Shown: positions 7,202 to 24,350 of the stretch, one piece after another
Layout of the letters: each line of letters opens with the position of its first letter
Numbering within the stretch: position 1 is the first letter of the stretch
Virus record (IMG/VR): IMGVR_UViG_3300047444_000065
Span: 1-25,133 of that record
Reading direction: 5' to 3' (one strand)
From: a virus
Length of the DNA: 25,133 nucleotides
Translations under genes and position numbers: made by a program
The notes under the pieces: generated by a model
What the model was told of the DNA's origin: nothing
Seen by the model: the letters and a program-made list of their open reading frames with translations, nothing else
Databases searched by the model: none

Positions 7202-8245
7202 ATGCCTTTGCCCGGCCAGGGTGCGGTCCCCACGGGGTCGCTTTATACGGAGCTGAGCGCCGTCACACGCAGGGCATTCGTGCCTCGCTTGTTCGTTCAA
7301 ATCTACTTCGCCTCACCGGCGCTGTTCTTCCTCCTCGGGGGTGCGCAGCGGGCAGCGGGCGGCTTGAGCCAGGTGACGATCCCCGTGCAGGGGCAGTCGA
7401 TGGTTCAGGGTCAGTTTACCGGCTACGGCGGTGGGTTCAACTCGCCCGTGATTACGCCGGGTGTGCAAAACCTGCAATTCCCACTGGCCTATTGGGTCGT
7501 CCCGATCCCCTTGCCGTTTGGCGAGACGGTGATCCAGGCGACCGATCGCGAGATTTCTCTGCTTAAGGCACGCATGAACGATGCATGGTCCGTGACCGTG
7601 CAGAACATGGGCGGCTTGCTGTTCAGCAACAACACGGCGAACTCGCTTCAGCCCAACAGCTTCTACGATGCTTTCGACGATGGCACGAACGTCACGACCT
7701 ACGGTGGCGTGAACCGGACGGCTCCGGGCAACACGTCTCTCAAAGGTCAGTACTTCGTCGCATCGTCGGCCTCGGGCAATGTCGGTAACGTAGGCTACAA
7801 GCGCACCACGATGTCCAACTCGCTGATTACGGTCGGCGATGCGGCGGGTGGTGAGGCACCGACCTGCGTCATTATGAACCCGGCGGACTTCGCTACCTTG
7901 AACACCGACTTCATCGGGACAGAGGCGACGTTCAACCGGCCCGGCCAGGAATACTCGATGGGAACGCCGATCCGGTCGTCCTTCCCGAACCTGAACGTGG
8001 CAGGTGTGCCGATATTCAACGATCACTTCTGCCCGGTCGGCAACGCCTACTACGTCAACACCAAGTACACGAATATGTACGGGTCGGAAGACGCGATGTT
8101 CGATTTCTCCGGCTTCTACTCGCTGGTGCCGATCGGCCAGATCGGACAGCAGGGTGTCGTGGTCCTCGGATACAATGTCCTGACGGCCAAGCCGAGCGCG
8201 AACGCGCATGTGACCGGCATCGCGAATCCGTCGTCCACGTTCTGA
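7202..8245 (+). CDS. Major capsid protein
   Basis: This 347-residue protein should form the icosahedral shell, most likely with the HK97 fold of tailed phages. Position after the scaffold and length support this. So do the style of the sequence: an N-terminal arm, a Gly-rich segment (FTGYGGGFNSPVITPGVQNL), the long spine-helix-like ISLLKARMNDAWSVTVQNMG, and domain-like beta segments (CVIMNPADFATLNTDFIGTE, then VAGVPIFNDHFCPVGNAYYV). GGAG at 7191-7194 sets the ATG at 7202. There is no proteolytic delta domain, consistent with a separate scaffold gene. Confidence 0.88.
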   Translation: MPLPGQGAVPTGSLYTELSAVTRRAFVPRLFVQIYFASPALFFLLGGAQRAAGGLSQVTIPVQGQSMVQGQFTGYGGGFNSPVITPGVQNLQFPLAYWVVPIPLPFGETVIQATDREISLLKARMNDAWSVTVQNMGGLLFSNNTANSLQPNSFYDAFDDGTNVTTYGGVNRTAPGNTSLKGQYFVASSASGNVGNVGYKRTTMSNSLITVGDAAGGEAPTCVIMNPADFATLNTDFIGTEATFNRPGQEYSMGTPIRSSFPNLNVAGVPIFNDHFCPVGNAYYVNTKYTNMYGSEDAMFDFSGFYSLVPIGQIGQQGVVVLGYNVLTAKPSANAHVTGIANPSSTF

Positions 8246-8264: not shown

Positions 8265-9377
8265 ATGGCTGGTTGGCTTTCTGGTCCTGGGCAGAATCTG
8301 CCGATCCCGTCGCTTTATCCGGCATCGCTGGTCAATGGGGCGATCGATCCGGCAGGCACGCGGGTAACGCTGGCACCTGGGCAATCTCTCCTGATCCCGC
8401 GAGGGGTGTGGGCGATCGATCTTTCCAAGGTCGGCGTCATTCAGGTACTCGACCCGATCACGCAGACCTGGCAGATCGAGTCTTCCTACAATCGCGGCGG
8501 CAACAACACCGTGACGAGCGATGGTACTAACATCCGCGTCGCCAACATGACCGGCTGCGCGATCGGCGCGGTGGTTACGACAGCGGGTTCCGCCTATGTT
8601 GCGGGCAGCACGACGGTTACGCCGAGCGCCGGCAACTCGCAGTGGACGGCTGTCGTGGGTGGGTTGATCAACGTCACGATCAGCGTCTCCGCAGCGGGTG
8701 CGGGCTACACGGTTCCCCCGCTGGTGTTCATCCCGCCGCCCCCGCAGCCGGGTGTGCAGGCGACGGCCATCGCGGTCATCTCGTCCGGCACGGTGTCGAG
8801 CATCACGGTCGTCAATCAGGGCGCCGGGTATCTCACGCCTCCGGTGCCGCAGATTTATCCCAATCCGACCGACCCGGCCTATATCTCTGGGGCAATCACC
8901 TCGAACGCGACGGCGGTCACGACGCTGGTTGGCTCGGGAACCCTGGCGGCGGTGCTCTGCAACAATCCGGGGTCTTCGTTCTCGACCGTTCCCTCGCTGA
9001 CGATTGCCGGTGCCGGGACTTCGGCGGCGGCGACGATCGTGCCGATGTGGACGATCACAGGTGACTCGATCACCAACGGTGGCGCTGGGTACTCGGTGTT
9101 GAGCGAGATCACGACAGTCGGCGGCGTCCCGAGCGCGACGCCTGCCTATCTCAACCCGGCGGTCGAGCTTACGGGGTATCTCCCGCGCAAGGCATCGATC
9201 GGCGTCGCTGCTGTATCGGGTGGCACGATCACCACGATTGGCACGATCTATGACGGCGGGTTGTTTGCCGGTACGCCGACTGTTTATGTCGCGGGTGGCG
9301 GAACCACTTCGGCCACGATCGGGGTTACGCTCGGCTCGGCCAACGCCACGATCTTCATGGCGCAGGTCGGCGGTTAA
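8265..9377 (+). CDS. Virion protein made of GxGY repeats
   Basis: This 370-residue structural protein follows the capsid gene. After a non-repetitive N-terminal domain (residues 1-100, with VTLAPGQSLLIPRGVWAIDL), it consists of divergent units of 40 or so residues marked by a Gly-x-Gly-aromatic turn: GAGY at 145 and 186, GSSF at 236, GAGY at 273 and GGLF at 331. Each turn is followed by a Pro-rich strand and a Thr/Ser/Val-rich strand, suggesting a beta-solenoid or stacked beta modules. The same unit occurs in the genes at 10128 and 11048. A head decoration, spike or whisker role is plausible. GAGG at 8252-8255 is the ribosome site. Confidence 0.7.
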   Translation: MAGWLSGPGQNLPIPSLYPASLVNGAIDPAGTRVTLAPGQSLLIPRGVWAIDLSKVGVIQVLDPITQTWQIESSYNRGGNNTVTSDGTNIRVANMTGCAIGAVVTTAGSAYVAGSTTVTPSAGNSQWTAVVGGLINVTISVSAAGAGYTVPPLVFIPPPPQPGVQATAIAVISSGTVSSITVVNQGAGYLTPPVPQIYPNPTDPAYISGAITSNATAVTTLVGSGTLAAVLCNNPGSSFSTVPSLTIAGAGTSAAATIVPMWTITGDSITNGGAGYSVLSEITTVGGVPSATPAYLNPAVELTGYLPRKASIGVAAVSGGTITTIGTIYDGGLFAGTPTVYVAGGGTTSATIGVTLGSANATIFMAQVGG

Positions 9378-9423
9378 GTCTCCTGATCCCGTGAAAGGGG
9401 AGGGTTTGTATTTGGAGGTCTAG

Positions 9424-10128
9424 GTGCTCACGTCATACGAGACAATCACCTCGGCGCTCTTGCAGGCCCCTTCCTCCCCGATCCCGCTGATCCCGACAGC
9501 GACGATTGACACCTACATTAACGAGGCCCGGCAGCAAGTCGCCGCGCAAGGCGTGTGCATCCGCAACTATGCGGATTTGACGCTGGTCATCGGGCAACAG
9601 CAGTACAACTTCTCCACGATCACCGGCTTGGCGACGGGTGTGGCCGGCGTGTTCAACGTCCGCCAGCTTTGGCGGCAGAACGCGGGGGGTTACAAGTGGC
9701 TGATCTCTCGGCCATTCGAGTTCTTCGGCCTTTACGCGCTTAACAGCCCGGTCCCGGCGAACGGGCAGCCGAGCCAGTGGTCGCAGTTCGGCCAGGGGAC
9801 GAGCGGCAACATCTTCGTTAATCCCGCCCCTGATTTTGGCTATGCCTGCAAGGTTGACGCACTCTGCACGCCGATCGATCTGGTGGACAATACGACAGCA
9901 GAGGCCATCCCGCCGATCTGGACGCTGGCTGTGCCGTTCTATGCGGCGTGGATCGGATTCCAGTCGCTTCAGCGGTCATCGGACGCGGACAAGATGTTGG
10001 AGCGGTTCACGCAGCAGATGGCATTTGCCCGCAATGCCGCCGATCCCAATCTGTTGCCGGAGAATTGGGCACAGTCGCCTGACCAGATGCAGGCCAACCG
10101 GCTCGGCATACAGCAGAAGGCCGGCTGA
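9424..10128 (+). CDS. Head-tail adaptor-like protein, copy 1
   Basis: This 234-residue protein starts at a GTG with a strong GGAGG at 9414-9418. It begins with a helix (TIDTYINEARQQVAAQGVCI) and continues with a beta domain (LTLVIGQQQYNF, VFNVRQLW, GNIFVNPAPDFGYACKVDAL). It ends with helices (IWTLAVPFYAAWIGFQSLQR, then DKMLERFTQQM). This is the layout of short-tailed phage adaptor or tail-tube proteins of the P22 gp4 / T7 gp11 type that sit under the portal. It aligns along its length with the next gene but lacks that gene's inserted repeat segment. It ends in a TGATG overlap with that gene. Confidence 0.65.
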   Translation: MLTSYETITSALLQAPSSPIPLIPTATIDTYINEARQQVAAQGVCIRNYADLTLVIGQQQYNFSTITGLATGVAGVFNVRQLWRQNAGGYKWLISRPFEFFGLYALNSPVPANGQPSQWSQFGQGTSGNIFVNPAPDFGYACKVDALCTPIDLVDNTTAEAIPPIWTLAVPFYAAWIGFQSLQRSSDADKMLERFTQQMAFARNAADPNLLPENWAQSPDQMQANRLGIQQKAG

Positions 10129-11048
10129 TGCTCAACAGCTACCTCCAGCAAGTTCAATCCTTCGTCCGCGACCGGGCGCAAAAGGAGCTTAACCCCGAGG
10201 ATTTGCGCGTCTTCATCAATCGTGCTAGGCGCGAGGTGGCTCTACGAACTCAGTGCGTTCGCGTCCTCACGCCGATGTCAGGGGCCATCGTCAGCATCAA
10301 TATCACCAACGCCGGCACGGGGTACACGGCTCCTGTTGTGACGATCTCCGCCCCGGACCAGCCGAACGGAGCGCAGCCGTTTCCCGCAGGCGCACAGGCC
10401 ACAGCGACGGCGCAGATTATCCTTGGCTCGCTCAGCAACATCGCCGTCAACTTCGGCGGCTCGGGATACACGTTCCCCCAGGTCACGATCACCGATCCCA
10501 CAGGGACAGGGGCAACAGCCACGGCCAACGTGCAACCGATCAACGTCACCCAGGCGTCGCAGGAGGTCTACCCGTTCTCCGCCGTGCCGCTCAACATCTT
10601 CCCTGGCGTGGGGGAGATTATCTTCGTCCGATCGGTCAGCTTCATTTACGCCAACTACCGCTACAGCCTGCCGTGCTACCCGTTCTCGACCTACCAGGCG
10701 TTCATCCGCCAGTACCCGAGGCAATACCTCTACGTGCCGACGATGTGCGCCCAACTCGGACAGGGCAGCAACGGCTCGCTCTACATGTATCCCATTCCCT
10801 CGACGATCTATCAGATGGAATTTGACTGTTGCTGCCTACCCAAAGATTTGGAGGATGATAGTTCATTCGAGGCGATTGCCGATCCTTGGACAGATTGTGT
10901 CCCTATGGGAGCCGCCATCTATGCTTACGAGGAGATGCAAAACCTCAACGCGGCAATGTATTATCGCAAGAAGTTCGACGACTATTGCAACAGATACTCG
11001 GCATACACCCGGCCGGGCAGAGTGACTAACATTTATGGAAAATGGTGA
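10128..11048 (+). CDS. Head-tail adaptor-like protein, copy 2, with GxGY insertion
   Basis: This 306-residue paralogue of the preceding protein has matching landmarks: FINRARREVALRTQCVR, EVYPFSAV, GQGSNGSLYMYPIP, and FEAIADPWTDCVPMGAAIYA with KKFDDY. Residues of about 52-142 have no counterpart in copy 1. They carry two GxGY units (GTGY at 63, GSGY at 111) like those in the genes at 8265 and 11048. The insertion falls between the first helix and the first shared strand. It probably forms part of the neck or tail below the portal. The insert may project outward as a decoration; that is inference. Confidence 0.65.
   Translation: MLNSYLQQVQSFVRDRAQKELNPEDLRVFINRARREVALRTQCVRVLTPMSGAIVSINITNAGTGYTAPVVTISAPDQPNGAQPFPAGAQATATAQIILGSLSNIAVNFGGSGYTFPQVTITDPTGTGATATANVQPINVTQASQEVYPFSAVPLNIFPGVGEIIFVRSVSFIYANYRYSLPCYPFSTYQAFIRQYPRQYLYVPTMCAQLGQGSNGSLYMYPIPSTIYQMEFDCCCLPKDLEDDSSFEAIADPWTDCVPMGAAIYAYEEMQNLNAAMYYRKKFDDYCNRYSAYTRPGRVTNIYGKW
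10281..10553 (+). repeat. GxGY repeat insertion in adaptor copy 2
   Basis: This segment encodes two units with Gly-Thr-Gly-Tyr and Gly-Ser-Gly-Tyr turns. It is absent from the neighbouring paralogue at 9424. Its first unit (NAGTGYTAPVVTISAP) reads almost like the units of the gene at 11048 (NPGTGYAVPPTVSIDD). Confidence 0.6.
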
Positions 11049-13411
11049 TGTCGGACGGCGGCAACATCTCGCTTCCCGGCAAGCCCGCCGACACGCCAGG
11101 GCTGCCTGAGAATTTCCATCCGATCAATTTCGAGAAGTTCGAGACGCTGAACACCAAGCCGTCTCGCCCGGCGATTGGCGCGGGCGAGATGTTCTGGTGC
11201 GATGGCTGGTTCCCGATTGGGCCGAGCAACCTTCGCATCCTGCCGGGGATCGGGCCGGACATCTACACGGCCCCCGCTGGGATGACGATTGTCTGGTTCG
11301 CGTTCGGCAATGTCGGCGATGTGCCTTACGCCACTGTGTTGTTGTCGGACGGCTCGATGATCGCCGTCAACCTCAACACCAATGCGACATCGACGATCAT
11401 GCCGGCGGGGACGATTGCAAGTCCGTCAACGGTGCAGGGGTTTACGCAGTTCGGCAGCGAGGAGTTGGTGTTCGCCAAGGATCAGACAAACGGGTACTGG
11501 CTTTGGGATGCCAACAACCTGTTTACCGCAGGCGGGGTTGGCCCCGAGGTCTCCATCGCGAACGCCGGGAAGAACTATACGAGCCTGCCGACGATCTCGT
11601 TTCAGACGACAGGGAGCGGGACATCGGCGACGTTCGTTGCGGAGATCAGCAACGGGGCCGTGACGAAGATCACGACGACGAATCCGGGGACAGGGTTCGG
11701 TGTTGATGATTTCATCAACCTCTACATCAGTGGGGGGGGAACCGACGACAGCGCGATTGCTACACCGACTGTCAGCGTCAATACCGGCGGGGTGCAAGAG
11801 GTCGTCATCGTCGATGGCGGGCATGGCTATACCAGCCGGACGAGGGTCATTTTCAGCGCTGCGCCTGGCAGCGGGGCGAGCGGGGCTGTCTCGATAACGA
11901 ACGGGGCGATCACCGCAATCGCGATTATCAATCCGGGCACGGGGTACGCAGTCCCGCCCACCGTTAGCATCGACGATCCCGGCATACCGGGCAGCCCTTC
12001 CATCCCTGGTGGGTCTGGTGGCGTCGCGGTTTGCACCGTGGCGTTCGGCCAGATTACCTCGATCGGGGTCAATTACGGCGGCACGGGGTATCGGGCGCCG
12101 CCGATTGTCTCGATCATCGGCGATGGCACTGGAGCAACTGCTGTTGCTCAAATGGAATCAGGGGTTGTAACCGCGATCATCATGCAGACCTACGGCCAGG
12201 GGTACAGTAAGGCGTTGGTTCATTTCAGTGGTGGGAATGACGGGGCCGAGGCGACGACGTTCCTGATGCCCTATGGCATCTCAGGGACAGCGTCTGAGGT
12301 TTATCAGGGCCGGGTGTGGATCACCAACGGTGGGGCCACAGCATCATTTCCCCCGAGGGGCAGGACGATCTTCTCGTCGGCTGAATCGGCGGTGGATTTT
12401 GGCGACAATGGCGGGGCGTTTGTCTCGACCGACTCATTCCTCCGTGTCGGGTATCATTGGCTAAAGCAAACCAACGGGTTCCTCTATCTCGGGGGTGATT
12501 CATCGATCAACTATATCTCCGGGGTTCAGACCAGTGCGCCGGCCACGACAGGCGGGGCAGCGAGCGTGCCGGTGACGACGTTCAGCAACGTCAACGTCGA
12601 TCCCCAGCTTGGTTCTCCCTGGCCGTCTAGCGTTCAGGTGTTCTCCCGCAACATCGTGTTCGCCAACACGATCGGGGCTTTCGTGTCCTACGGAGGGGCT
12701 GTGTCCAAGGCGTCTCTCCCGTTGGATGGGTTTTACTTTACCGGGCCGATCTACAGCGCGACGGCCAATTTCTCCTCCGCTGTGGCAAATATCTTCGGCA
12801 TCCCGGTTTACATGCTTCTCCTGCCAACGATCGATCAGTTGACGGGGCAAACCGTTAATAAGCTGCTGATGTGGGATGGCAAGAAGTGGTTTACGTCGCA
12901 ACAGGATCGTCCATTAACTTATATCTCGACGTATGAGATCAATTCTGCTCTGACGGCATGGGGGACGGACGGGACGCATCTGTTCCAATTGTTCGCCCAG
13001 CCCTCGACCGGGTTTACCAAGCGGGTGCAATCCAAGCTATATGCCGACCCGGCCTATTGGCTGACCAAGACGGCGAGAAGCCTGACGCTGGTAGCGCAGA
13101 GTTATGCCCTCGATAACCCTCTGACCGTTTTCATCGACAACGAGAACGCCCTGGGGTCGGGGAACGCGGAGATTACGGTCACGCCGAGCGCGGGGTTGTT
13201 GACATGGACGAACAATGTCGGGCAGCCGATCGTGTGGACGAATAACGCAAATCAGCCGATTGTGTGGGGTGCTCCGGGGTTGGCGGTGATGGGTCCGTAT
13301 CCGGTGGGCCAATCCGGTAGGATGATCGGGTTGACGATCGAGACCGACGCCTCTGATCTGTCTCTCTTGTCGGTGATGCTCAGCGAGCAGGTTTACACGG
13401 CGAATGTCTAG
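11048..13411 (+). CDS. Tail hub/nozzle protein (probable beta-propeller) with GxGY insertion
   Basis: This 787-residue protein starts at the ATG in the TGATG overlap. An ATG two codons earlier at 11042 is possible. Before and after a central insert, repeated four-stranded blade-like sequence is seen (TIVWFAFGNVGDVPYATVLL, ELVFAKDQTNGYWLWDANN, then YQGRVWITNGG, GFLYLGGDSSINYISGV and NKLLMWDGKKWFTSQ). This fits the propeller tail nozzles of short-tailed phages (P22 gp10 / T7 gp12 type). About 240 residues, encoded by 11543-12262, are six GxGY units placed inside the propeller. It follows two adaptor-like genes, as expected for a nozzle. Confidence 0.7.
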   Translation: MSDGGNISLPGKPADTPGLPENFHPINFEKFETLNTKPSRPAIGAGEMFWCDGWFPIGPSNLRILPGIGPDIYTAPAGMTIVWFAFGNVGDVPYATVLLSDGSMIAVNLNTNATSTIMPAGTIASPSTVQGFTQFGSEELVFAKDQTNGYWLWDANNLFTAGGVGPEVSIANAGKNYTSLPTISFQTTGSGTSATFVAEISNGAVTKITTTNPGTGFGVDDFINLYISGGGTDDSAIATPTVSVNTGGVQEVVIVDGGHGYTSRTRVIFSAAPGSGASGAVSITNGAITAIAIINPGTGYAVPPTVSIDDPGIPGSPSIPGGSGGVAVCTVAFGQITSIGVNYGGTGYRAPPIVSIIGDGTGATAVAQMESGVVTAIIMQTYGQGYSKALVHFSGGNDGAEATTFLMPYGISGTASEVYQGRVWITNGGATASFPPRGRTIFSSAESAVDFGDNGGAFVSTDSFLRVGYHWLKQTNGFLYLGGDSSINYISGVQTSAPATTGGAASVPVTTFSNVNVDPQLGSPWPSSVQVFSRNIVFANTIGAFVSYGGAVSKASLPLDGFYFTGPIYSATANFSSAVANIFGIPVYMLLLPTIDQLTGQTVNKLLMWDGKKWFTSQQDRPLTYISTYEINSALTAWGTDGTHLFQLFAQPSTGFTKRVQSKLYADPAYWLTKTARSLTLVAQSYALDNPLTVFIDNENALGSGNAEITVTPSAGLLTWTNNVGQPIVWTNNANQPIVWGAPGLAVMGPYPVGQSGRMIGLTIETDASDLSLLSVMLSEQVYTANV
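11543..12262 (+). repeat. Six-unit GxGY repeat insertion in the nozzle gene
   Basis: Six units are marked by GKNY, GTGF, GHGY, GTGY, GTGY and GQGY, spaced about 40 residues apart. They interrupt propeller-type sequence that resumes at GISGTASEVYQGRVW. Similar bases surround several turns (GGCACGGGGTA is shared between units and with the insert at 10281). Confidence 0.6.
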
Positions 13412-13420
13412 GAACGATTG

Positions 13421-14401
13421 ATGGCCTTCACATACACCTTTGCAGCGGTCACGGCGGCCACTGGGGCGCAGCTAGACGCCAACTTCAACGCGTCGGGGTT
13501 GTTGGGCACGCTCCCCTGCACGGTGTCGGGCACCAACGCGCTGATCCTGACGGCGCTGACGACGCCAACGGTTCCCTCGCCTCCTATAGCTCTACAGGCG
13601 CAACTGCGCGTCTCAGGGATCGCGACCGGGACCAATACCGGGGCAACGACGGCGAATGTCTCGGGGACCGGAGCTTTGGCGGTCTACAAGGACACGGCTT
13701 CCGGCCCTGCGGTTTTGTCCGGTGGGGAGATTTTCGTCGGCAACTACATCGTCCTCACCTACGACGCGGCGCTCAATACCGGGTCTGGCGGGTGGCACCT
13801 TGAGACGCCTCTGATCGCGGGCGCGCCGACAGGGACAGCCGGGGGCGATTTAAGCGGCAGCTATCCCAACCCGGCGGTTGCCAAGATCAACGGTGTGGCG
13901 CTCGGCTCGACGACGGCAACGGCTGGCAATCTGCTCGTAGGATCGGGATCGGCATGGGTCTCCGTGCCCGCGAGTGGCGATGCTTCGCTCGCCTCGACCG
14001 GAGCGGCTACGGTTGTCAGCCTCCGGGGAAGCACGGTTGTCGCCCCTACGTCATGGACGCCAACCGACAATTCCGGGGCTGTCCTGTCGTTTACATCGGT
14101 CAGCGCGAACTACTCCAAGATCGGCAACATGGTGTTCGCTTATTTCACGCTGACCTACCCTGCAACAGCGGACACGTCGAACGCCTCGATTGCGGGTCTG
14201 CCGGTGGCTGTTCCCAACCATCCCTATGCGGCCGGCCCTGCTGCGTGCTCCGTGAGCGGCGGGGCGATAGCCGTTATCCTCTCGCCCACCGTCAGCACGT
14301 CAACCGCCGCGTTTACAAATCACGCGACGGCAGCGGCTGTTACGAACGCCAATCTCAGCGGCCTGACGGTAAAGGGCATGCTAATCTACCCGGCGGCGTG
14401 A
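13421..14401 (+). CDS. Tail fibre or tail-tip structural protein
   Basis: This 326-residue protein is rich in Ala, Ser, Thr and Gly. It contains the common phage fibre element GGDLSGSYPNPAVAKINGVA at about residues 147-166, followed by a typical fibre linker (GNLLVGSGSAWVSVPASG). The C-terminal part (SWTPTDNSGAVLSFTSVSAN, then YSKIGNMVFAYFTLTYP) looks like a beta-sandwich adhesin head. There is no signal peptide, unlike the fibre genes further on. ATG at 13421 is preferred over TTG at 13418. The ribosome site (GGA) is weak. It could be a side fibre or a component of the tail tip. Confidence 0.7.
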   Translation: MAFTYTFAAVTAATGAQLDANFNASGLLGTLPCTVSGTNALILTALTTPTVPSPPIALQAQLRVSGIATGTNTGATTANVSGTGALAVYKDTASGPAVLSGGEIFVGNYIVLTYDAALNTGSGGWHLETPLIAGAPTGTAGGDLSGSYPNPAVAKINGVALGSTTATAGNLLVGSGSAWVSVPASGDASLASTGAATVVSLRGSTVVAPTSWTPTDNSGAVLSFTSVSANYSKIGNMVFAYFTLTYPATADTSNASIAGLPVAVPNHPYAAGPAACSVSGGAIAVILSPTVSTSTAAFTNHATAAAVTNANLSGLTVKGMLIYPAA

Positions 14402-14730
14402 TGAGCCTCGCCAATCTTTTCAACATCCCCCATTCCGAGGAGGATTTGCAGGTCTTCTCGTTCAGCAATATGGACCAGCACCGGCAGATCGTGGATGCAG
14501 TTACGAAGCAGCGGTTGACGCTGTATCCGCTCGATCCTATTCCAACGCAGGATGCCCGGACTTGGCTGATGATCCATCAACAGGCGCACGTCGAGTTCAC
14601 GTCGGCGTTAGGGATTGCCGGGGTTGACCTGACGGCGGTAGATTTCCACGACCCGGAGCAGATGGCGAGTTGGATACGGCTTCATGCCGACGAGCACATG
14701 CAAGCGGCGAACAAATTGGGCCTGAGATAA
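14401..14730 (+). CDS. Hypothetical small phage protein
   Basis: This 109-residue protein starts in a TGATG overlap with the fibre-like gene and ends right before the ATG of the next gene. It is mainly helical and His/Gln/Asp-rich, with a possible metal- or helix-rich centre (TWLMIHQQAHVEFTSALGIA) and end (SWIRLHADEHMQAANKLGLR). The same frame stays open upstream inside the previous gene, but that part is a shadow. No family is recognised. Tight linkage to the GNAT-like gene suggests a shared virion role. Confidence 0.65.
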   Translation: MSLANLFNIPHSEEDLQVFSFSNMDQHRQIVDAVTKQRLTLYPLDPIPTQDARTWLMIHQQAHVEFTSALGIAGVDLTAVDFHDPEQMASWIRLHADEHMQAANKLGLR

Positions 14731-15471
14731 ATGCTGACACGCACGACCGACGCAGATGCGATCAACTCGATCCTCAACCATCCATCGGTGCGCCCAGACG
14801 TGGCGGAGCCGAAGGACGGGGTGCTGGACCTCGCGGCTGTAGCGGCAAATCCGGCCAATATATTCCTGGTCGGCGAGCATGGCGGCTTTGTCATCTTCAA
14901 ATACGACGTCGGGATTTACGAGGTCCATACGGCCATTCTTCCCCAAGGTCGGGGAGAGTGGGCCAAGCAAGCCTCGGCCGATTGCGTCAACTTCATGTTC
15001 ACGCATACCGACTGCGTTGACCTGATTACGCGCGTTCCGCAGGGGCACATCGCGGCCAAGGCGCTGACCGAGATGAACGGGTTTCGCCACGAGTTCACGA
15101 CTCCCCCGGACACGCTGTTCCGCGAGCGACTGGTGCCGTGCCACATCTATTGCCTGACGATCCATGAGTGGGCAAAGCGCGTCGAGGGCATGGAAGGGCT
15201 GGGGGCCGCGTTCCACGAATGGCTGACGGCTCAGGTTGGAGAGGGGGCGCCGCACGAGCCTGACGAGGCCCACAACCGGGTTGTTGGAGTGGCCTTGGCG
15301 ATGGCTCAGTCGGGGCAGGTGGCAAAGGGCGTTGTGTGGTATAATCGCTGCTCCCTAGCCGCGAGGCACCCGACGATCGGGCTGTTGGGTCTCGACCCGC
15401 CACAGATCAGGTTCGATGCGGGGGTTTTGACGGTGACGCCGCAGGGATTGCAATTCTCTCGTCCTCATTGA
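14731..15471 (+). CDS. GNAT-fold phage virion protein
   Basis: This 246-residue protein has an N-terminal half with the GNAT acyltransferase layout: a strand and turn (NIFLVGEHGGFVIFKYDVGI), strand 4 with the acyl-CoA loop (EVHTAILPQGRGEWAKQAS), a helix and strand (VNFMFTHTDCVDLITRVPQG), and a closing segment (AAKALTEMNGFRHEF). The QGRGEW loop fits the family Q/RxxGxG/A motif only loosely. The C-terminal half is a separate domain. Similar proteins occur among podovirus virion genes, at a place like that of T7 gp13. Whether it is catalytic cannot be told. The stop overlaps the start of the second leader motif. Confidence 0.65.
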   Translation: MLTRTTDADAINSILNHPSVRPDVAEPKDGVLDLAAVAANPANIFLVGEHGGFVIFKYDVGIYEVHTAILPQGRGEWAKQASADCVNFMFTHTDCVDLITRVPQGHIAAKALTEMNGFRHEFTTPPDTLFRERLVPCHIYCLTIHEWAKRVEGMEGLGAAFHEWLTAQVGEGAPHEPDEAHNRVVGVALAMAQSGQVAKGVVWYNRCSLAARHPTIGLLGLDPPQIRFDAGVLTVTPQGLQFSRPH

Positions 15472-15489
15472 AAGGTTGGAGACAGCACC
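15470..15489 (+). promoter_or_regulatory. Conserved leader motif, copy 2 (before ejection genes)
   Basis: This copy agrees with GAAAGGTTGGAGMYAGCRCC. ATG ACG TGA (15491-15499) begins 9 nt after GGAG and its stop overlaps the GTG start at 15496, which lies 14 nt after GGAG. It marks the boundary between the tail genes and the ejection-protein genes. Confidence 0.6.
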
Positions 15490-15495
15490 GATGAC

Positions 15496-16713
15496 GTGAG
15501 GAGCTTCACGGATTACGAGCCGCCGAGCACCTGCCATTTCGGGATCATTTCGGGTGCGCTGGCTGGTGGCCTATTGGAGCTTGGCGTCGGGGCGGCGACG
15601 GCTGACGTTCTCGGTGGTATTGGCGGGAGTTTGCTGACCGGGATCGGCGGCAGTGAAATCCTGGCCGGGATTACCGGCGGCGATCCGATCAAGGCTCTGG
15701 AATCCGGGGCAATCTCGGGCGGCATCGGGGGAATAGCGGGTGCTGCACTCGGCCCGGCCGGGTTGGGGTTAAGCTCTACCGTCGCGCAAGGCATCGGCGG
15801 CGCTCTCGGTGGTGGTGCAGGGGCTTTTGCGACAGGGTCAAACCCGATCACGGGGGCTTTGACCGGCGGTGCGCTGGGTGCGCTTGGAGGCGCGTTTGGC
15901 GGTGGCGGCACGACGGCACCATCTACTACGGTGGCAAGCGCGCCTGCGACGGGAGGGGCGGCCTCTGCCGCCTCGACGTCGGGAATATCAGCCGCTGGTG
16001 GTGCGCCAGTTGATTTGACGGCGGGTCTAAGCGGCGGTGGGGGTGGGATCAATGTTCAGCCGTTGAGCAACATGGCTGCTCCGGCTGGCGCAACCGGGGG
16101 CGTCTCGGGAGGAGGTAACGTGGATTTCACTGGCGGTGGCGACTTCGGCGGGACAGGCATCATCACGCCGCAAACCCCCAACTCGACAGGCGGGTTGAGC
16201 GGGATGGGATCGAACATCCTCGGGTTCTTCGAGAAGAACCCCGGAGCCTTAATCGCCGGGGGATTGCTCGGGGCAAACATGCTGATGGGCGACAAGCCCC
16301 TCCCGGCTGAGGCATCGATCCAACAGGCCGCAGGCGAGGCGCAATCGCACGCCAACGTGTTGCAGGCATACCAGACGAGCGGAACCTTGCCTCCGGGGTT
16401 ACAGTCTCTTGTTGACCAACAGACATCCTCGGCGGAGGCGGAGTTGCGCTCCAGCTTCGCCAAGAGTGGCCTGTCCGGTTCGACGATGGAGGCCGAGCAG
16501 CTGGGCCAGTTGAAGCGAGCCAAAGCGGGGCAAATCGCGGCACTGGCGGACAATCTGGCAAAACAGGGCATCCAGTGGGCGGGGTTGTCGGCGCAGGAGA
16601 TGGGGCAGTTGCTCACCGCTCAACAGGCACAGGATACCGCATTCACGCAGAGCCTTGGTCTGTTTGCCGGTGGCCTGTCGGGGTTGCGTGGCTCAGGGAC
16701 AGGGACGGCGTAA
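15496..16713 (+). CDS. Glycine-rich membrane-active virion protein, probable ejection protein
   Basis: This 405-residue protein starts at a GTG 14 nt after the second leader motif. Residues 17-135 are glycine/alanine-rich with several hydrophobic stretches (GIISGALAGGLLELGVGAA, ISGGIGGIAGAALGPAG, GALTGGALGALGGAFGGGG) resembling glycine-zipper membrane segments. A Ser/Gly-rich middle follows. Another hydrophobic helix (NPGALIAGGLLGANMLM) comes next, then a helical C-terminal third rich in Gln and Ala (AEASIQQAAGEAQSHANVLQ). The pattern fits internal virion proteins that enter the host membrane during DNA ejection (T7 gp14 or P22 gp7/gp20 type). The specific family is not certain. Confidence 0.65.
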   Translation: MRSFTDYEPPSTCHFGIISGALAGGLLELGVGAATADVLGGIGGSLLTGIGGSEILAGITGGDPIKALESGAISGGIGGIAGAALGPAGLGLSSTVAQGIGGALGGGAGAFATGSNPITGALTGGALGALGGAFGGGGTTAPSTTVASAPATGGAASAASTSGISAAGGAPVDLTAGLSGGGGGINVQPLSNMAAPAGATGGVSGGGNVDFTGGGDFGGTGIITPQTPNSTGGLSGMGSNILGFFEKNPGALIAGGLLGANMLMGDKPLPAEASIQQAAGEAQSHANVLQAYQTSGTLPPGLQSLVDQQTSSAEAELRSSFAKSGLSGSTMEAEQLGQLKRAKAGQIAALADNLAKQGIQWAGLSAQEMGQLLTAQQAQDTAFTQSLGLFAGGLSGLRGSGTGTA

Positions 16714-19032
16714 ATGCCCGAGGCACAACCGACGCCCGATCAGTATATCGAGCCGCCACCGGCCGGGTATATGGGCGGGCCTATGGGTACGCCGAGCGAT
16801 ACGTTTGGTTTGCCGCCTCGTCCTGCGCCTTCACCGCAAGCGCCTACAGGGCCGCCTGACGAGGTTATTCGGCCGCAGGGTGGGCAGTTGCCGATGAGGC
16901 AGGTCGCGCTCAACACCAATGCGATGAGTCCGGGGTATGGGTTTGACTCCGATGCGAAGCCTGCGCCGCCGCAGGGAGAGAAACCAGCATCACCACAAGA
17001 AGGGGCATCTCCGGGGGAATATCCCGCATATCTGGACCAACTGATCATTAGCCGGGAAAGGAGTGGGCCGGCAGCCGTTTCTCCCAAAGGCGCGGTTGGT
17101 ATAAATCAGATCATGCCGTCAACCGCCGCTGCTTACGGGGTCAGCCGGGACAAACTTCTTGACCAGAAGGTTAACATGGCTCTCGGCAACAAAATCCGCC
17201 GCGATCTGTGGGAGAAGTATCACGATCCTGTAGCGGTGATGGTCGCCTATAACGCGGGGCCAAAAACCGCAGATCGTTGGCTTGCGGCGGGGAGAGACCC
17301 CGGTGTTTTGCCGGCGGAGACACAAAAGTACATCGGGTTGCCGGGGGACGCGGGGCTAAAGTCATGGGCGACAAGTGAATCCCCCGAGTTGAAGGCCCGT
17401 GGCGATGCGATCATGGCCGAGGCGGACCAGATGCGCGATCGGCACGTCTCCGCTATCAGCGAATTGATGGCGCAGGCTAATACGGCCCCGGCTGGGTCAA
17501 AGGCTAGAGACGACGCCATTGCCGAGATTCGTGAACGCGAGCATCGCTACAGTCTGGACTACGAGCGGATTTCGATGCACCCGCCGCCGATGAAGCCGGT
17601 GGATGCCTTGGCTAACTTCGGATCGGCTGGCACGATTATCGCGTTGATCGGCGGGTTGTTTGCTCGCCGGCACATGACAGCGGCGCTCGGGGCTGCTGGT
17701 AAGGCGATGCAGGCGATCAACCAGAACAACTATGACGAGTGGCAGCGCGAATATAAGGTGTGGGAGCAGCAGAGCAGAACCGCGCTCGATATGGTTAAGA
17801 TACAGCACGACGAGTTGCGCGATCTTATCGACGACAAGAAGATGTCGTTTGATGAAAAGAACCGCACAATCCAGACGGCTCTTAGTGCGTTGGGGATGAC
17901 GCGCCTATCGGAAGAGATGGCGTTGGGGGCGCACGAGAAGGTTTATGGTGAGGTCGCTGGGTTGGAGAAGGCGCACTCGGCGGCGGCACAGAGCAGGCTT
18001 GCATTGCAACTGTCGGTAGCAGGCCCGTTGGAGGCCAAGTATCTCTCGGAGGGAATGCCCCAGGCCGAGGCTCATGCCAGGGCATTTCGGGAGGCTAACA
18101 TTACGAAGGATCAGCCGGTCGCCAAGGTGGTAGAAGGTAAGGTTGAAGATGAGGCAAAGCGCCTTAATACAGCATGGGATGCCGCCCATCCGGGGGCGTC
18201 TGACGCTGAAAAGGCCGAGGCGCATCACAAGAACGATTTGGCCGCACGAACCGAGATGGCGCTTGCGACGGCCAAATCTCCGACCGGGAATTTGAGCGAG
18301 GATTCGGTGAAGCTGCTGGCGAAGCAGTACGAGATGGGCGATATGGGGGTGATCACGTCGCTGCCGCGTGGTGGGCCTGGGCGTATCCAGGTCGAGAACC
18401 AGATCGCCGCTGATCTGAAGGATATGCCAGACGCGGCGTCGCAGGTCATAATGAACCGCCTGCGCATGGCCGAGGCGAAAGCCGCCGCCACCACGGCGGG
18501 GCGGATCACCATGAACACGGAGGTTTACTCCAAAGAGGCGGCGGGGGCGGGCCAGCAGGTCATTGAGACCTCCAAGAAGTTCCCGCGCACCAACTACCCG
18601 AAAATCAACGAGGCAATCCAAGCCTACAATCTCCATACGGGCGACCCAAACATCATTGCGTTCGGCGCGGCGATGAGCGCGTTCATCAACGCCTACGGCA
18701 AGCTGTCCAATCCGACAGGGATAGGTGTTCACGACGCCGACAAGGAGAGGATCACCAAAATCCTCGATACGCGGTTGTCGCAGGGACAAATCGAGGCGGG
18801 CGTGGAGCAGGTCATCAAAGAGGGCGTCGTCGTCTCCACTGCGGCCCGTCAGGCACAGGAAGAGGTGCTGGGGCATATCATGCCGCATCAGCCGGGAGCG
18901 GCGGCGGCAGCGCCCCCGGCAGCGCCTACCGCTACTGCCCCGCCCCTTCCCAATGCACGTCAAGCCCCGGATGGTCATTGGTACGTGCCCGCTCCTGGTG
19001 GCCCCGGCAAATATCTGCGGGTTGACCCCTGA
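16714..19032 (+). CDS. Virion lytic transglycosylase (SLT domain) ejection protein
   Basis: This 772-residue protein has a disordered Pro-rich N-terminus (1-100). A soluble lytic transglycosylase domain follows at about 105-207: SRERSGPAAVSPKGAVGINQ with probable catalytic E115, IMPSTAAAYGV, and the family's VAVMVAYNAGP. It would cut peptidoglycan to let the ejection apparatus cross the cell wall. The remainder is long, charged and helical, as in T7 gp16-type and P22 gp16-type ejection proteins, with one hydrophobic segment (SAGTIIALIGGLFARRHMTAAL). The start is the ATG directly after the previous TAA, and the ribosome site is weak. It lies in the ejection block between two other membrane-active proteins. 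Confidence 0.8.
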   Translation: MPEAQPTPDQYIEPPPAGYMGGPMGTPSDTFGLPPRPAPSPQAPTGPPDEVIRPQGGQLPMRQVALNTNAMSPGYGFDSDAKPAPPQGEKPASPQEGASPGEYPAYLDQLIISRERSGPAAVSPKGAVGINQIMPSTAAAYGVSRDKLLDQKVNMALGNKIRRDLWEKYHDPVAVMVAYNAGPKTADRWLAAGRDPGVLPAETQKYIGLPGDAGLKSWATSESPELKARGDAIMAEADQMRDRHVSAISELMAQANTAPAGSKARDDAIAEIREREHRYSLDYERISMHPPPMKPVDALANFGSAGTIIALIGGLFARRHMTAALGAAGKAMQAINQNNYDEWQREYKVWEQQSRTALDMVKIQHDELRDLIDDKKMSFDEKNRTIQTALSALGMTRLSEEMALGAHEKVYGEVAGLEKAHSAAAQSRLALQLSVAGPLEAKYLSEGMPQAEAHARAFREANITKDQPVAKVVEGKVEDEAKRLNTAWDAAHPGASDAEKAEAHHKNDLAARTEMALATAKSPTGNLSEDSVKLLAKQYEMGDMGVITSLPRGGPGRIQVENQIAADLKDMPDAASQVIMNRLRMAEAKAAATTAGRITMNTEVYSKEAAGAGQQVIETSKKFPRTNYPKINEAIQAYNLHTGDPNIIAFGAAMSAFINAYGKLSNPTGIGVHDADKERITKILDTRLSQGQIEAGVEQVIKEGVVVSTAARQAQEEVLGHIMPHQPGAAAAAPPAAPTATAPPLPNARQAPDGHWYVPAPGGPGKYLRVDP

Positions 19033-21702: not shown

Positions 21703-23208
21703 ATGCGTAAAGGCTGGTTTGGCCTCATAGCCCTGCTGCTCCCGGTCGCGGCTGTCGCGCAGCAAAATCCGGGCGTACAGCAATCCGGCCCCGTCACGTC
21801 GCTTCATCTTCCCGCATGGGCCACTCAAGGCGTTTTGCAGGACGGTGGAGGGGCGGCGGGGTCGAGCGTGTTCGGGAGTGGGTATGTGACCGAGTTAGGC
21901 ATCACCAACTCTGGCCTCCCGCTTTGCATCACCAGCGCCCTCCTGTCGTCGCAATCCGGTTACTATCAGTCTTGCATGGGGGCCAACGCGACGGTTCTCG
22001 GCGAGACGGGTGCGTTCTTCACCTTCAACGCCTATGGCGGGGCTGCCCAGCTTCCCTTGGTGTTCGAGATCAACGGGGCGAATTACGACTTCCCCGGCAA
22101 CGGGCAGGGCAACATCCTCGGTCCTAACACATCGACGATCAACGAGCCGATGGTGTGGGCCAACACGCAGGGGACGCTGGCGAAGGATGGGCTGAACACC
22201 GCAATCGCGCACACCGGCTCATTGTCGATAACCGGGGCTACCACGCTGACCGGGGCGACCGGCCTGGCCCCGACCGCTGCAACTTTGTCGTCGCTCAATT
22301 CGCTGTATTTCCCGACTTACTCGCAACTGGCGGGTGTCAGGGACATCCTGGCTTTGTCCGGGGTTGTCTCGGATTCGGCCGGCAGCTTCCGTGACACTTT
22401 CTATGCTCAAAGCAGCGACAGCGACACGACGACATATACCCAAGCGCACACGAACTACGCCGGGAGGTTTGCCGCGTTTGGCGCAAACACCGGGACGTGG
22501 CAGGCCATCGACAAGAACATCGTCGGGCTGAACGCCTACGGCTATGCCGCAACGACGGGAACCGGGCGAGGGGTGTCGGGGATCAATACCGATGCCGTTC
22601 AGTACGGGGCCGGGATTTCCGACAACGAGTTTGCTGCTCACAATCCAAGCTCGGGTAACGGGAGCATCGCGCAATCGGTATCGATGGCTGGGGTACAGGC
22701 GATCATCGACAGCAATTATGCCGATAACGATGTGTCGCACATCGCCTACGGGATCAACATCGACAATATCGGGTCCAAGAAGATCACCGCCGCCCTGAGC
22801 GCGACAAATGGCGACGCGGACTACATGATCTACACGAACGCGGCGATGGCAGTGCATTCCGCCGCTATCACCATGCCGCATTCCGGGACAGGAAATGCCG
22901 GAACGATCATTGATTACGGGTTGAACAACGGCAATCCTGCGGGTGGATCGTACACCTATTGGGCCAGCGCCACGGATGGCGGGACATTCGGTTGGGTTGA
23001 CGCAGGGGCGACGCTCGGGACGCTTGGCGTCTCGGGCTTGACGATAACGGGGAAGGTTGCGGTTGGGGGGACGTTCTCTGTTACACAGGCTAGTCCAGCT
23101 GCGGCAGATGCATGTACGGCTGGGCAGATTGTTGCTGATACGGGCTTTATATATACCTGCGCATCGACGGGAGTATGGAAGCGCGTAGCCGTCACGGGCA
23201 GCTACTGA
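21703..23208 (+). CDS. Tail fibre protein with N-terminal signal peptide
   Basis: This 501-residue protein begins with a convincing Sec signal: basic RK, a hydrophobic core (FGLIALLLPVAAVA) and an AVA-Q cleavage site near residue 19. Residues 20-131 form a module shared with the next gene (QQSGPVT, then ELGITNSGLPLCI, SGYYQSCMGAN and FEINGANYDFPG). A long Thr/Asn/Gly-rich beta region follows, ending in a CTAGQI...YTCASTGVWKRV segment typical of fibre tips. It would recognise the host surface. An export signal on a virion protein is odd, because assembly is cytoplasmic. The start is the second ATG after the third leader motif. Confidence 0.7.
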   Translation: MRKGWFGLIALLLPVAAVAQQNPGVQQSGPVTSLHLPAWATQGVLQDGGGAAGSSVFGSGYVTELGITNSGLPLCITSALLSSQSGYYQSCMGANATVLGETGAFFTFNAYGGAAQLPLVFEINGANYDFPGNGQGNILGPNTSTINEPMVWANTQGTLAKDGLNTAIAHTGSLSITGATTLTGATGLAPTAATLSSLNSLYFPTYSQLAGVRDILALSGVVSDSAGSFRDTFYAQSSDSDTTTYTQAHTNYAGRFAAFGANTGTWQAIDKNIVGLNAYGYAATTGTGRGVSGINTDAVQYGAGISDNEFAAHNPSSGNGSIAQSVSMAGVQAIIDSNYADNDVSHIAYGINIDNIGSKKITAALSATNGDADYMIYTNAAMAVHSAAITMPHSGTGNAGTIIDYGLNNGNPAGGSYTYWASATDGGTFGWVDAGATLGTLGVSGLTITGKVAVGGTFSVTQASPAAADACTAGQIVADTGFIYTCASTGVWKRVAVTGSY

Positions 23209-24350
23209 TGCGCCTTATTCTCCTCTTGGTTCTGCTCCTGTCTGCCCCGGCTTGGGCGCAAAACCAGACGCCTGTTTACCAATCCGGGAGCATGACGCCG
23301 GGGCATGCGGCCAAGTTTCTGACCAATGGGATCATTGGAGACGCTGGGCCGGCGGGTGGGGGAGCGCCGGGGGTTGGGCTGAATGAACTTGGGATCACGA
23401 ACACCGGAACGCCGTTTTGCATCAACGATGGGCCTATCGTTCCTGGTTCCGGCTACCATCAACTCTGCCTCGGGGCCAACTCTCTCGGGGGCGGGTTGCT
23501 AACATACAACCCCTATGGGACGGCATCTCCGCTGTCGTTCAATTGTTTGATCAATGGGGTATTGTATCCAAACTGCTTCGGTGGCGGGACGGTAACAAGC
23601 ATTACCGCGACATCACCGATCGTGGTTACGCCTTCCCCGATCACGGGTGTGGGTGTCATCAGTTGCCCTACTTGTGCAACAGGTGGCGTCACCTTTGCCG
23701 ACCCGACAGCGACGATAGGGACATCGGCGGTAAATGGCTCGGCATCGACGGCGATGCGCTCGGACGCAGCACCGGCGATCCCGCAATGCTCAAGCAGCAC
23801 CTTCGGAGCCTGCAAGGTTGACAACAGCACGATAACCGCTTCGTCCGGGGTTATCTCGACACCTGGGGGAGCCAACCCTACGGCGACGGCCGGGGCGAGC
23901 GCGATAAATGGATCGGCGGCTACGTTCATGCGGTCGGATGGTGCTCCAGCGCTCACCGCTGCAACGCCATCAACAGCCGGCATCGCCAAACTCAACAACG
24001 TAGGCTACCCGGCCGGATGGGTGGCGACGATCAACCCTAACAACGCCGTTGTCGTTACGGTGGGGCAGGACTCGACGATCACCGGGATTGTCGGCAGGGT
24101 CGAGACAGCGGTGGGGAGCGCAGCGACGGTATCGGTTTACAAGGCCCCGAGCGGTACGGCTTGCTCCGCTGGTACGGTTCTCCATTCCGGGAGCTTTAAC
24201 GCGAACGGCACGGCAGCGACTAACCAGACGCTGAGCGTTACCGTGAGTACGTTGGCGGCGGGTGACTCGATCTGCTACCAGACGACGGGAACGGATTGGA
24301 CCACGGGCGCCGGGATCGGCACCATAACCATCTACTTCGCCCCGACATGA
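23208..24350 (+). CDS. Tail fibre/adhesin with N-terminal signal peptide
   Basis: This 380-residue protein starts in a TGATG overlap with the previous fibre gene. It has a clear signal peptide (MRLILLLVLLLSAPAWA, cut before QN). The shared module at about 18-125 reads VYQSGSMTPGHAAKFLTNGI, ELGITNTGTPFCI, SGYHQLCLGAN. Two copies of a 28-residue fibre repeat follow (pattern NPTATxGxSAxNGSAxTxMR). The C-terminus is a beta-sandwich-like head (INPNNAVVVTVGQDSTITGI) of the kind that binds receptors or sugars. An in-frame ATG at 23175 lies inside the upstream gene and would bury the signal, so 23208 is preferred. Confidence 0.7.
   Translation: MRLILLLVLLLSAPAWAQNQTPVYQSGSMTPGHAAKFLTNGIIGDAGPAGGGAPGVGLNELGITNTGTPFCINDGPIVPGSGYHQLCLGANSLGGGLLTYNPYGTASPLSFNCLINGVLYPNCFGGGTVTSITATSPIVVTPSPITGVGVISCPTCATGGVTFADPTATIGTSAVNGSASTAMRSDAAPAIPQCSSSTFGACKVDNSTITASSGVISTPGGANPTATAGASAINGSAATFMRSDGAPALTAATPSTAGIAKLNNVGYPAGWVATINPNNAVVVTVGQDSTITGIVGRVETAVGSAATVSVYKAPSGTACSAGTVLHSGSFNANGTAATNQTLSVTVSTLAAGDSICYQTTGTDWTTGAGIGTITIYFAPT
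23697..23954 (+). repeat. Two 84-bp copies of a fibre repeat
   Basis: The copies at 23697-23780 and 23871-23954 each encode 28 residues of the pattern (A)(D/N)PTATxGxSAxNGSA, continued by xTxMRSDxAPA. They are separated by 90 bases. The type recurs in phage tail fibres and is probably a shaft element. Confidence 0.7.

Follow-up and report, generated by a model that had tools for sequence, protein, structure and literature searches.

A single module, a repeat unit of about 45 residues and of beta-strand type that carries a GxGY motif, is confirmed here to be common to three virion genes of a podovirus-like phage: the tail nozzle gene, the adaptor gene and the gene that follows the major capsid gene (called rep below). 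The phage is represented by virus record IMGVR_UViG_3300047444_000065, whose 25,133 bases form the window, and all of the results discussed are computational. The original prediction had assigned six units to the nozzle, two to the adaptor and none to the gene at 9424; these counts hold, and rep has four to six.

The structural gene block

The structural genes of the window form a podovirus-like block that begins with the genes at 1050, 3638 and 6486, named terminase-like, portal-like and scaffold-like from position alone (portal and terminase orthologues are also present in relatives), and continues on the plus strand with the major capsid protein gene (7202..8245; PHROG major head protein, E 2.9e-11; no units), rep (8265..9377; 370 aa), the insert-free adaptor paralogue (9424..10128), the adaptor with its two-unit insert (10128..11048) and the tail nozzle protein with its six-unit insert (11042..13411), an open reading frame with two possible starts, 11042 or 11048. 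In relatives the rep orthologue also lies directly 3' of the capsid gene, and from this position alone rep may be supposed to coat the capsid. Equating its N-terminus with the protein of 108-111 aa that the freshwater clade has in this position was tried and set aside as too weak (hhalign probability 13%).

Further downstream, the large virion-like product of 16714-19032 contains an SLT transglycosylase domain (E 6e-13) and is likely an ejection protein, and the adjoining genes at 21703-23208 and 23175-24350, with a common N-terminal region of about 120 residues (43% identity, E 2e-17), probably encode two fibre-like proteins that share an anchor. A weak host hint comes from two relatives of the capsid gene, L088 and L089, which stem from an Acetobacteraceae bog MAG and a Verrucomicrobia MAG, where the phage contigs were possibly binned.

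One unit in three virion genes

With an iterated profile, whose consensus has 47 positions, the three proteins score 124, 69 and 67 bits as wholes and the gene at 9424 scores -1 bit, while none of 300 shuffles per protein exceeds 7 bits. Because circularity had to be avoided, profiles were also trained per gene, on other phages: a nozzle-only profile from a distant clade gives 76 bits to the window nozzle, 52 to the adaptor, 34 to rep and -1 to the gene at 9424 (best of 500 block shuffles, 11 bits), and an adaptor-only profile gives 60 bits to the nozzle and 20 bits to rep. The weak cross-test is that of the rep-trained profile, which scores the window nozzle at 4 bits only. By direct comparison, the adaptor insert and the nozzle units are 38% identical over 99 aa (E 1.5e-12).

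The units all lie on the plus strand. The iterated profile finds four in rep (8664..8804, aa 134-180, 43.5 bits; 8784..8930, aa 174-222, 24.0 bits; 8934..9041, aa 224-259, 24.4 bits; 9051..9128, aa 263-288, 15.2 bits), with motif residues at 145, 186 and 273, and a weak one ahead of them (8565..8657, aa 101-131, 8 bits) that has the strand pattern, while a further, cryptic unit (9195..9299, aa ~311-345) is seen from the predicted strand pattern only. Adaptor units 1 and 2 (10278..10442, aa 51-105, 38.6 bits; 10425..10550, aa 100-141, 39.2 bits) have their motifs at residues 63 and 111. The six nozzle units, again from the iterated profile, follow one another at 11528..11671 (aa 163-210), 11651..11803 (aa 204-254), 11786..11920 (aa 249-293), 11900..12064 (aa 287-341), 12047..12178 (aa 336-379) and 12158..12283 (aa 373-414), with motifs at residues 216 (GTGF), 260, 299, 347 and 385 and a degenerate copy near 176.

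Structure prediction, which covered two of the three genes, agrees between rep (pLDDT 90) and the nozzle (pLDDT 80) on how the strands are ordered, each unit reading strand, GxGY turn, strand, loop, strand and a tight turn leading to the next unit; in rep an N-terminal beta domain (aa ~31-100) precedes the four to six units. Against predicted viral structures the best Foldseek match of the rep model is a P22 gp10-type nozzle (E 1.6e-11), followed by cyanophage baseplate and structural proteins; against the PDB its best match has E 0.13, and no Ig fold is among the best 50 matches listed. The nozzle model matches the solved nozzles of A4, HRP29, SU10, T7, PhiM1 and Pa223 at E 3.6e-14 to 2e-7, with TM-scores of just 0.3-0.4, and gene 11042 is accordingly classed as a podovirus nozzle with a propeller-based fold (T7 gp12 / P22 gp10 / SU10). 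By strand order the array would leave the beta-propeller between blades 2 and 3; the geometry of such arms is likewise putative, and homologues point to the probable exposure and contacts of their units.

No family of Pfam or NCBIfam falls on the unit in any of the three proteins, and none in Pfam on a tandem of the consensus; the Ig-like families (BIG, FN3, I-set) are unmatched in these same searches, as are CBM families in Pfam and NCBIfam. Searching the PDB by sequence gave no convincing relative of the unit (matches to 1m9u and 7dm0 were judged to be chance), a tblastn search of phages with the consensus tandem gave no match, the query probably having been masked by the low-complexity filter, and no description of the motif was found in the literature. 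PHROG families do match (phrog_701, 5342, 460, 708, 2885 and 438; E down to 1.9e-22), and since these are families of cyanophage-type proteins, the unit is widespread but unnamed. Within 12 longer relatives (32-66 kb) the units are essentially confined to nozzle, adaptor and rep; weak matches elsewhere in such relatives are at G009:C1:48891-48950 (E 2e-5) and G003:C1:8557-8640 (E 9e-4).

A fixed pair in the adaptor and a variable array in the nozzle

That the units are insertions, as had been proposed, is borne out by unit-free proteins that align around the sites. The gene at 9424 is a paralogue of the adaptor (blastp E 8e-14) with no units in 76/76 members, and the two proteins align before residue 48 and again from ~145, which identifies the unit pair as an insert; the 214-aa adaptor of MW202825 likewise aligns on both sides of adaptor residues ~51-143. 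The adaptor matches Pfam SU10_adaptor (PF24175) with 31.2 bits, above the cut-off of 27; the insert splits the protein, so that its C-terminal half alone matches, and in L087, a relative free of the insert, the match covers positions 2-185. In the nozzle, the unit-free proteins L043 and L053 align around residues ~168-411 of the window protein.

Exactly two units are present in all 85 adaptors of the window's clade, and residues invariant in the pair include P76, D77, P79, G81, P86, G88 and Q90. Distant freshwater relatives are represented by about 80 viral contigs together with MW202753 and MW202825; none of their adaptor-like proteins has units, one is without any insert, and many hold an unrelated insert of 60-76 residues at the same site. 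This unrelated insert (L086:6111-6959 and about 40 freshwater relatives) has the pattern ..NPVIWSSG..GDYVFSNIYIYKV..PPYPS..YPP, and Pfam and PDB searches with it were without match, so that a CBM5/12 reading suggested by eye found no support there. Adaptor genes also form a paralogue series, two in the window (9424-11048) and, in L022/L024 at 11986-16319, four insert-free copies together with a unit-bearing one, which suggests stacked or specialised neck rings.

The nozzle comparison used 86 distinct sequences, a few of them truncated, after identical ones had been merged. At the main site 20/86 have no units and 66/86 have two to eight; a single unit is found in none, a hint that two units may be the smallest stable block. 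The units of L083 and L151, which belong to one contig, sit in another loop, and L152 has two units inside a unit-free clade. On the nozzle-core tree, units are gained or lost six or more times, with two of the changes forced by well-supported branches, and because the outgroup has units, most of the changes appear to be losses. Both adaptor units persist in phages that lack nozzle units, as do the rep units wherever rep is in view, except for L145, which falls below threshold.

These data bear on whether the repeats could be tolerated passengers of permissive loops, with no function beyond being harmless to assembly. The repeated loss of the nozzle array would fit such passengers, as would an adaptor site that in another clade accommodates something unrelated; however, a pair whose number does not vary across 85 sequences, and several of whose residues are invariant, is not what passengers lead one to expect, and this explanation appears improbable.

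Age and mobility of the units

The original prediction described the unit as a mobile domain, and this description survives in part. When units were compared across phages, the closest match lay in the same gene for all 361 units tested, and adaptor units match by position, 1 to 1 and 2 to 2, in 50/50; within genomes, the closest pairs are only tandem duplicates in one nozzle, that of L072. It follows that the module entered the three genes before the clade diversified and was then inherited in place, the gene-specific lineages being older than the clade. The unit may therefore be called mobile on a deep timescale only, and by these comparisons continuing change would be confined to nozzle copy number and one relocation.

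The original prediction had also pointed to DNA that the units have in common, and the word GGCACGGGGTA is indeed present in the adaptor (10314..10324) and twice in the nozzle (11936..11946 and 12080..12090, all on the plus strand), but it is absent from gene 8265. It spells GTGY in favoured codons, with a chance of 0.07 per site, and the identity does not extend into the flanking DNA, so it reflects codon choice and was rejected as evidence both of homology and of recent copying. DNA similarity between the genes of the window comes in short stretches only, of about 35 bases or fewer.

The strongest form of mobility, a module moving freely and still being copied among the three genes, would draw on the variation of unit presence by clade and gene, on freshwater relatives with nozzle units only, on the displaced units of L083/L151 and on the two units of L152. 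Set against these are the uniformly same-gene best matches, the restriction of close within-genome pairs to the L072 tandems and the shortness of the DNA similarity between genes, by which recent copying of DNA between genes is rejected and free movement in recent time largely refuted; continued free movement is thus the least probable of the explanations weighed, and very unlikely.

What the units may do

Conservation was measured as mean pairwise identity, units versus the rest of the same protein. Adaptor units stand at 51-53% against 51-56% for the adaptor core, and rep units 1-3 at 48-51%, with the fourth at 38%, against 44-54% for the rep N-terminus, so the units of these two proteins are about as conserved as the proteins themselves and appear constrained like structural parts. 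Nozzle units 3-6, at 31-35% against 46-48% for the nozzle core, are less conserved than what surrounds them, as an array free to vary would be. The conservation in adaptor and rep, a property read from alignments, would favour a structural role over that of an arms-race adhesin and argues against a fast-evolving part in host recognition for these units.

With moderate confidence, we read the tandem units as beta-rich arms on the exterior of a short-tailed virion, which would serve as structural parts or spacers and be fixed at the neck but adjustable at the nozzle. The nozzle arm would be an optional extension from the propeller, at blade 2/3, where SU10 has its Ig-like nozzle domains; the adaptor pair would separate the N-terminal helices from the beta domain (the fibre dock in SU10) and may be retained through contacts with neighbouring subunits or fibres; and the rep units could be a rod on an N-terminal domain that anchors to the capsid. 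The units would have entered each gene once and early and diverged in place, after which the nozzle array expanded, contracted or disappeared. Against this, Gly/Pro turns alone raise conservation, for folding reasons, and the nozzle array, being dispensable in several lineages, is not a required structural part there.

The main alternative, raised in the original prediction and possible though on balance unlikely, is that the units are weak multivalent adhesion modules, whose copies on head, neck and tail bind glycans of the envelope or capsule and hold the phage until the tail engages. The unit-bearing proteins are ones expected on the particle exterior, and in cyanophages PHROGs assign the module to tail fibres, baseplate wedges and head proteins; Ig-like domains of other phages have been proposed to act so, unverified (PMC8718954, PMC5292684), and the nozzle array changes fast in number and sequence. 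Yet the unit matches no carbohydrate-binding family, rep has no fold match in the PDB, no binding site has been identified, and the conservation of adaptor and rep units at about the level of their cores does not suit an adhesin.

Comparison with known systems

A precedent for the external arms that we favour is SU10, whose nozzle has Ig-like domains that emerge between propeller blades 2 and 3 and swing out, lengthening the tail by 277 A, and whose adaptor consists of a helix bundle and a fibre-dock domain (PMC9509320). In SU10 as here, tandem beta domains occur in the nozzle protein, at a comparable place by strand order, and the window adaptor has its pair at the start of the beta domain; SU10 has four Ig-like nozzle domains, whereas here there are six GxGY units, and 0 to 8 in relatives, and rearrangement on infection has been shown for SU10 only. 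Among inserted domains of tail-tube proteins, domain 2 of YSD1 stabilises the ring, and contact with sugars has been proposed for the Ig folds of T5 or SPP1 (PMC8718954), so there are precedents for structural and adhesive roles alike.

More generally, the unit resembles the Ig-like (BIG1, BIG2, FN3) virion domains, for example of T5 pb10, pb6, lambda gpV and T4 Hoc, which are likewise small beta modules, found as additions to or insertions within head and tail proteins, occur across unrelated virion genes and have often been proposed to touch cell-surface sugars (PMC8718954, PMC5292684). It differs in being a tandem unit of about 45 residues rather than a sandwich of about 90, in having no Ig match in Pfam and in showing no Ig hit among the PDB Foldseek matches listed for rep; it works like the phage Ig-like domains without being recognisably Ig-like. 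The BACON domains of crAss-like phages are also a tandem beta-domain repeat of evolving copy number in a structural protein (PMC6949934), but they belong to a recognised carbohydrate-binding-type family, while the GxGY unit is not in Pfam. In T4-like cyanophages, which are contractile-tailed, PHROG families place the unit in baseplate wedge, tail fibre, head and head-closure proteins; here it occupies a podovirus-type adaptor, nozzle and post-capsid protein.

It is tempting, and we do so tentatively, to regard the unit as a phage-wide, non-Ig virion block whose fold has no counterpart in the PDB, which plays in many tailed phages the part of Ig-like domains and of which, in this podovirus clade, one pair became obligate in the neck ring while the nozzle copies stayed adjustable. 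Ig-like virion domains are well known and their role is unsettled; the GxGY unit, with no Pfam, NCBIfam or PDB entry, is a second module of similar distribution. Since natural relatives have it in fixed number in one protein, in varying number in another and not at all in a paralogue, the question of adhesion versus assembly can be tested directly, and the annotation of many phage structural genes that are now labelled unknown would gain from a curated family model.
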